DNA from: Oscillospiraceae bacterium
GTDB lineage: Bacteria; Bacillota; Clostridia; Oscillospirales; Oscillospiraceae
Length of the DNA stretch: 64,000 bases
Direction of reading: 5' to 3'
NCBI GenBank assembly: GCA_022792945.1
Contig: JAAWBZ010000033.1
Span: 1 to 64,000, forward strand
How positions within the stretch are numbered: position 1 is the stretch's first letter; every line of letters begins with the position of its first letter. Made by a program: the position numbers and the translations under genes. The notes below the pieces were generated by a model, which saw nothing but the letters and a program-made list of their open reading frames with translations, was not told the origin of the DNA and did not search any database. This document shows, piece by piece, positions 23,545-24,960 of the stretch.

Positions 23545-24960
23545 ATGTCTATGAAACGGATTGTCAGGGTCCTGGCGCTCACTGCGGTGCTGGTCGCCCT
23601 GCTGGCGGTTGCCGCCGGGGCTGCGGATTTCACCCACTGCGCCGATGCGCTCAAGGAGCTGGGGCTGTTCCAGGGCAGCGACCAGGGCTACGACCTGGAC
23701 CGCGCCCCCACCCGGGCTGAGGCTGCCGCCATGCTGGTGCGCCTGCTGGGCAAGGAGGCCGAGGCCAAGGCCAGCACCGCCTATACCGCCCCCTTCACCG
23801 ACGTGGCCGACTGGGCCAAGCCCTATGTCCAGTACCTCTATGACAACGGCCTGACCAACGGCAAGACCGCCACTGCCTTCGGCTACGCCGACCGCTGCAC
23901 CGCCCAGCAGTACGCCGTGTTCCTGTTGCGGGCCCTGGGCTACTCCGACGCCGCCGGCGGCGACTTCACCTACGCCGCAGCTCTGGACTTCGCCCGGGAG
24001 AAGGGCGTGGTGGACGTCCTCAACTGCAACGCCGCCAATTTTCTCCGGGACGACGTGGCGGCCATGAGCTATACGGCGCTGTCCGTGGCCCCCAAGTCCG
24101 GCGAGGCGGATCTGCTGACCAAGCTGGTCAGCGAGGGTGCTGTGCAGGACGCCAAGGGCTATGACAAGCTGTTCGCCGGCCTCCGGTCCTTCGCCGCCGC
24201 CCAGAGCGCCGGGGATGCCGGCGCCAGCGCCGCGAAGCTGGATATAGAGATGGACATGAAGCTGGCCAACGTGGACTATCTCAGCGGCAAGATCGCCATG
24301 GACCTGGCGGCGGTCCTGGATGAGAAGGACCCCGACCAGTCCAAAATGGCCATGGATATGGACATCGACATGGCTTTCACCGAACTGGCGGCCCAGTCCA
24401 TGGGTCTCTCCGCCGCTGACGCCAAGCTCCAGGCCGCCCTTCAGTGTTACTATACAGACGGCGCGCTCTATCTGAACATGGACGGCGTCAAGGTCAGGAC
24501 GCCGCTCTCCCTGGCCGCGGTGATGCCCGCCGGCGCGGTGACCGCCGCCTCTGCCGGTCCGGTCAGTGCTGTCTCGTCCCTGGAGCATACGGCCGCCGGC
24601 GGTGTGGACCGCTATACCATCACCTACGCCGCCCATGCCATGGACCGCGTTGTGGAAACGGCCGGCGCACAGGCCGGCGCGGCGGGCTACTCCATGGGCT
24701 ATGACGCCATGACCGTGGAGATGGCCCTGCGCGGCGGGCAGCTCCAGTCCGCCAAGGTTGATCTCGCCATGCACGCGGCCGTGGAGGGCATGGCCATGCA
24801 CATGACCGCCCGGGTAGACCTGAGCGGCGTCAAGACCGGCTCCGCCGTGCAGGTGCGCCTGCCCGCGGATCTGAGCTCGTATCAGAACAGCGCCGGCGGC
24901 TCCTACGGCGTGATCGGCGGCGCCGACGGTCCCACCTCCATTTTCACCACTGCGGGCTGA
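23545..24960 (+). CDS. SLH-domain secreted protein with C-terminal [11 protein letters not shown] motif
   Basis: Signal peptide; SLH-like repeats; C-terminus [21 protein letters not shown]. Confidence 0.8.
   Translation: [471 protein letters not shown]

Follow-up and report, generated by a model that had tools for sequence, protein, structure and literature searches.

The beta subunits of the Na+-pumping decarboxylases (OadB, GcdB and MmdB; PF03977, TIGR01109) are proteins of about 350 residues with 10 transmembrane (TM) segments. In OadB, Asp203 lies at the tip of the helical hairpin H1, and the D203A substitution abolishes Na+ binding (PMC7274780). This hairpin tip is the closest described counterpart of the peptide analyzed here: the sole sequence in the PDB that matches a 20-mer consensus of the peptide is OadB (6iva/6iww, residues 193-212), which corresponds to it residue by residue, the aspartate of the peptide being residue 203.

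Short peptides shared by different proteins are also known from other systems. C-terminal sorting tags, such as LPXTG (sortase), PEP-CTERM (exosortase) and GlyGly-CTERM, are likewise short, conserved and carried by exported proteins; the motif is followed by a hydrophobic helix and C-terminal basic residues, keeps the same C-terminal place in homologues, occurs on several substrates per genome and has a dedicated peptidase or transferase that co-occurs with it. Short linear motifs are portable among unrelated proteins, where they occupy termini, loops and linkers with unconserved flanks, usually with 3-5 fixed positions within fewer than 10 residues, and they have a defined binding partner. 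The lipoprotein export signal of Bacteroidetes is a short consensus beside the lipidated cysteine.

Here, we analyze a peptide at the C-terminus of an exported protein encoded in a 64,000-nucleotide stretch of DNA from an Oscillospiraceae bacterium (hereafter the window; source genome G000), which a preliminary description had taken to be a sorting, processing or anchoring tag. We find that it is one copy of a module that occurs on many unrelated proteins. Our tentative reading is of a wandering module that derives from the Na+-binding core of the pump, is displayed on varying surface carriers, and may be recognized by a common putative partner or agent.

An OadB-like peptide at the end of an exported SLH protein

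The gene and its features in the window are as follows.

23545..24960, + strand: coding sequence of the 471-residue exported SLH-type protein with the peptide (open reading frame; Pfam SLH; orthologues in 7 of 7 genus genomes)
23545..23625, + strand: signal peptide, approximately residues 1-27, with the AxA-type end AAGAA/D (read from the sequence by eye)
23791..23880, + strand: S-layer homology match, residues 83-112 (Pfam SLH, 21.4 bits, cut-off 20.8)
24901..24957, + strand: C-terminal peptide, the OadB-H1-like module, residues 453-471 (pattern, Pfam, consensus-OadB alignment)
24916..24936, + strand: core GGADGPT codons, with Asp equivalent to OadB Asp203 (pattern search; 6iva numbering)
24958..24960, + strand: stop codon TGA immediately 3' of the peptide (sequence)

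The assignment as an S-layer homology protein is based on a single SLH match just above the Pfam cut-off, together with the signal peptide read by eye. Translation of the frame bears out the preliminary description in that the protein ends in a GGADGPT-type motif, and the match is not due to chance, the 17-base core pattern being found once in the window against 0.03 times expected in shuffled sequence. Its identification as an OadB signature also holds, as the copy agrees with the H1 tip including Asp203 in both Pfam and 6iva. Residues 443-469 align with positions 103-131 of the Pfam OAD_beta profile (PF03977) at 18.5 bits, below the cut-off of 31.6. In contrast to OadB, this 27-residue match covers approximately 20 of the 349 profile positions, and the protein lacks the TM domain, H2 and the decarboxylase partners; we agree that the ion-binding role of the hairpin is impossible at the C-terminus of an exported protein. 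GGADGPT is followed by SIFTTAG alone and then the stop codon, with no hydrophobic helix and no terminal basic residues. A single-sequence AlphaFold model of the protein was uninformative (pLDDT 42.6, below 50 in the tail) and was left unused.

Over the whole source genome, the exact motif occurs twice, in the window tail and in the true OadB (G000:C172, 540 bits in the PF03977 profile search). The motif recurs in degenerate form as SIGIIGGTDGPTAV (L313, C12:4527-4592) within a frame of 585 codons, a third copy that brings the non-OadB copies in this genome to two.

On the + strand of the window, between positions 17450 and 26477, the SLH gene is preceded by infB, an rbfA-like frame, a DHH-type gene (nrnA/recJ-like), truB and ribF, as judged by eye. 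A convergent gene downstream encodes a MATE-type transporter, likewise identified by eye from its translation.

The peptide recurs on unrelated proteins

Pattern searches covered 7 genomes of the genus, 151 of the family, 388 of the class and 398 of the phylum, and PF03977 profile searches were added to tell full-length OadB from short matches. The resulting module consensus is S-[IV]-G-[IV]-I-GGADGPT-[AS]-[IV]-[FIY]-[VI], with a length of 17-18 residues. In the class search, the motif gave 38 matches, OadB included, compared to none for a reversed-pattern control. In total, the pattern and profile searches identified about 65 distinct non-OadB proteins with the module in Clostridia and other Firmicutes; the number is approximate because the 73-row carrier table retains a few near-duplicates and chance frames (e.g., L139 and L179). 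The expectation in the preliminary description that the motif might occur on further exported proteins is thus amply borne out. The carriers fall into unrelated families with dissimilar flanks, conservation being confined to approximately positions -5 to +11, and most carrying genomes have 1-3 copies. Pfam names are available for some of them: barnase-type ribonuclease, rhodanese, Big_14, SBP_bac_3 with SLH, RsgI with PepSY, XRE-type HTH and DUF1294. By position of the module, the carriers are arranged as follows.

(a) Lipoproteins, module just C-terminal to the lipobox Cys: rhodanese (L251, L319, L325, L326, L355); barnase-type ribonuclease (L093, and L078 with a longer spacer); Big_14 (L321); domains without a known name (L009, L314, L351, L354, L356 and others)
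(b) One-TM microproteins of 48-65 residues, with the module outside, a TM segment and a basic end: L007, L013, L226, L334, L335, L336; L064 is similar
(c) Extracytoplasmic loop between TM helices: XRE-HTH-TM2 (L069; degenerate in L342); permease-prefix proteins (L225; L070, L091 and L159 are similar); two-TM proteins (L244, L246, L338, L349, L350, L353); a multi-TM protein (L337)
(d) Flanked by an ectodomain and a C-terminal TM segment: L243, L245, L247
(e) Linkers of SLH+SBP_bac_3 and RsgI/PepSY proteins: L315, L320, L322, L054
(f) C-termini, a rare position: the window protein, L006, L073, L359
(g) N-termini: the DUF1294 protein L074 and the 4-TM protein L223
(h) Without an export signal: a first family (L177, L182, L316, L323) and a second (L203, L227, L229, L313, L318)

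Both families under (h) are apparently cytosolic. Proteins of the L177 type (also L192 and L196) are small, have the module at the N-terminus, occur both in IMG/VR contigs and on chromosomes, and contain no domain beyond the module that Pfam finds. Those of the L203/L313 type (also L340, L343 and L344) are encoded by frames of approximately 340-590 codons in several Clostridia families, with the module in a loop near the C-terminus; Pfam gave no further domain in the members tested, and three copies are present in G131.

Membership in a decarboxylase operon was ruled out, the genes adjoining the microproteins being unrelated, and no conserved neighbour was found around them. A viral origin was likewise rejected: IMG/VR contigs contain few genuine copies, and most GGADGPT matches there are chance frames. 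Searches of plasmids and phages with the 20-mer returned annotated matches that are mainly true decarboxylase genes.

Gain, loss and relocation of the module

Orthologues of the window protein are present in all seven genomes of the genus, and the tail is found in G000 and G004 only. The tail-less orthologues in the other five end in TLP.DL.TY plus a few residues, and no decayed tail was seen 3' of their stop codons. Sister species carry the module elsewhere, namely on a microprotein in G005 and G006 and on a lipoprotein in G002; G003 yielded only an embedded, weak copy within L005, an M56/BlaR1-like protein, and one further weak match, and the genus search found no copy in G001. In a lipoprotein family from another Clostridia lineage, the module is internal in L327 and L328 and C-terminal in L359, where the internal site is empty. 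From the genus orthologues, the sister species and this lipoprotein family, it follows that the module is gained, lost and moved as one unit.

Two tandem paralogues of the window protein, L361 and L365, are encoded in G003:C49. L361 ends in PEQEAASV and a stop codon, at the place where the tail of G004 starts with AASVGIIGG, and judging from these sequences its end is possibly a truncated tail. No remnant of the tail was found downstream of its stop codon.

A fixed placement at the membrane surface

In nearly all tabulated lipoproteins, the first glycine of the module lies 9-11 residues after the lipobox cysteine, the exceptions being L093 at 13 and L078 at 28. Where a TM segment follows and the hydropathy scan separates it from the module, its start is 16-20 residues past the first glycine. 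The positive-inside rule and the order of domains predict that the membrane-anchored copies are extracytoplasmic. Such uniform geometry at the membrane surface across unrelated proteins argues for a function. The window protein does not follow this pattern: its copy lies at a free end, with no anchor nearby.

Placement and spacing of this kind would also be expected of a hairpin that self-associates or dips into the membrane, with the two hydrophobic half-strands around the GGADGPT turn pairing with copies of themselves or dipping so that the carrier is clustered or anchored. This would account for function without OadB, and it sits well with microproteins that are little more than the module and a TM segment, as well as with the helical-hairpin tip formed by the same residues in OadB (PMC7274780). 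Against it, no membrane segment adjoins the copy in the window protein or the others at C-termini, and the sequence beyond GGADGPT is short for stable insertion. We consider such a hairpin unlikely, and a recognized peptide the better reading.

Co-occurrence with OadB and comparison with sorting signals

In the family sample, 18 of the 22 genomes that contain a free copy encode OadB, as do 64 of the 129 that lack one (Fisher p=0.005, phylogeny not controlled); leaving out two genomes that have a cytosolic-type copy alone, the fraction becomes 18/20 (p=0.0005, again with phylogeny not controlled). All listed carriers in the class sample have OadB, which says little because OadB is so common there (79/97 genomes). 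Four carrier genomes are without detectable OadB, namely G131 (a complete genome with three copies), G079, G067 and G147, so OadB is not an obligatory partner.

The enrichment of free copies in OadB-bearing genomes, together with the sequence identity to OadB, could reflect a decoy, in which the displayed peptide mimics the pump and titrates a bacteriocin, a phage or another agent recognizing the OadB hairpin. Any available surface protein would serve such a purpose, in keeping with the different carriers in sister species. Yet the tip of the OadB hairpin is buried in the membrane core, copies are also present in genomes that lack OadB and in the cytosolic families, and we know of no agent that recognizes this hairpin, which leaves a decoy improbable.

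Somewhat less probable still is the proposal of the preliminary description, namely a signal for sorting, processing or anchoring, in which an envelope peptidase or transferase would recognize GGADGPT. The carriers are mainly exported, and the near-invariant core resembles an enzyme recognition site. Unlike LPXTG or PEP-CTERM tags, though, the module lacks the hydrophobic helix and basic tail, is present in 1-3 copies in most genomes, sits on unrelated carriers, and is placed anywhere in the chain, including N-termini, post-lipobox positions, TM loops and linkers, with two families even lacking an export signal. The preliminary description had itself tied the tag to conservation at the C-terminus of homologues, and among the six other genus orthologues only one, that of G004, has the tail, which by this measure speaks against a C-terminal tag; the motif as such is by no means confined to this protein. 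Cleavage at the extreme C-terminus would, moreover, take off only a few residues. A peptide that is recognized in varying contexts remains our preferred reading.

Selection acts on the peptide

In the free copies, G, A, P and T are each encoded by the full range of synonymous codons, with a third-position identity of 0.33. Five rhodanese lipoproteins from several genera share 95% amino acid identity over IGGADGPT, as opposed to 81% in the enzyme domain and 51% in the signal peptide, and the third-position identity of the core is only 40%. Saturated codons with near-invariant residues argue for selection on the peptide, and the amino acid sequence of the module is thus under purifying selection. 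Since searching with the exact motif favours an intact core, the copies found by profile are a fairer sample; they include GGTDGPT, GGSDGPT, GGADAPT, GGADKPT and GGADGPV, and GGADGPT is kept in most. We are confident that a portable module under selection is real.

The saturated GGADGPT codons rule out a DNA-level repeat or mobile element. Codon identity between the free copies and the oadB of their own genome is 116, against 99.4 expected from codon usage (p=0.008), perhaps pointing to some local derivation. Recent copying from the resident oadB was rejected, the excess being weak and no pair clearly outstanding. That the module is a relic, from pieces of oadB occasionally captured by recombination into loops or termini and persisting without function, would suit its location where insertions are tolerated and this small codon excess, but it is disfavoured and very improbable given saturated synonymous sites with invariant residues, conservation above a neighbouring enzyme domain across several genera, a fixed membrane spacing, and the recurrence of always the same 17 residues out of a 350-residue protein.

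Discussion

Taken together, the module is small, portable, exposed and constrained in sequence, features best accommodated by a short recognition or docking peptide, a reading that we hold tentatively, at somewhat less than even confidence. The portable unit of 17-18 residues has the sequence of the H1 hairpin tip of OadB-type Na+ pumps, and its unrelated carriers mostly present it outside the membrane at a short distance from the surface. We infer that one putative cellular partner binds the module sequence; binding would gather the carriers, be they SLH proteins, lipoproteins, one-TM microproteins or TM-anchored regulators, at a common site on the membrane surface. Given the co-occurrence of OadB with the module, candidate partners would be OadB or a factor involved in handling it. 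Several points speak against docking: no conserved gene neighbour of the microproteins was found that might encode a partner, four carrier genomes are without detectable OadB, one extracytoplasmic partner cannot serve all copies if two families are cytosolic, as they look, and a near-invariant core of 12 residues is long for a docking motif.

In its portability among unrelated proteins and its location in loops, linkers and termini, the module behaves as a short linear motif. It differs from the usual kind in its 17-18 residues, its near-invariant core of 8-12 residues and its counterpart in the core of a transporter. In lipoproteins, it resembles the Bacteroidetes export signal in lying beside the lipidated cysteine, but its sequence is different, it also occurs in TM, C-terminal and cytosolic copies, and its hosts are Firmicutes lineages. 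Neither GGADGPT nor IGGADGP was found in the running text of open-access papers, motif strings often being given in figures only; literature on PF03977 and related topics yielded only transporter, genome, omics or unrelated papers. Pfam and NCBIfam have no model for the free module, giving weak OadB matches only. The free module thus appears to be a new class of module with a putative recognition function or, on a stricter view, a new kind of short linear motif.

The lipoproteins L351 and L352 come from G223 and G196; a lipoprotein of this kind in a 286-codon frame scores 34.9 bits on PF03977 (cut-off 31.6), with the module alone responsible. As at least L351, a clear lipoprotein, is above the OAD_beta cut-off, such proteins risk annotation as decarboxylase subunits.

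Our data point to a conserved recognition peptide that a sodium pump has in common with dozens of proteins unrelated to one another, most of them in the envelope. The membrane microproteins of 48-65 residues are minimal carriers and ideal for experiments, and an identified binder would reveal a new interaction system on the clostridial cell surface.
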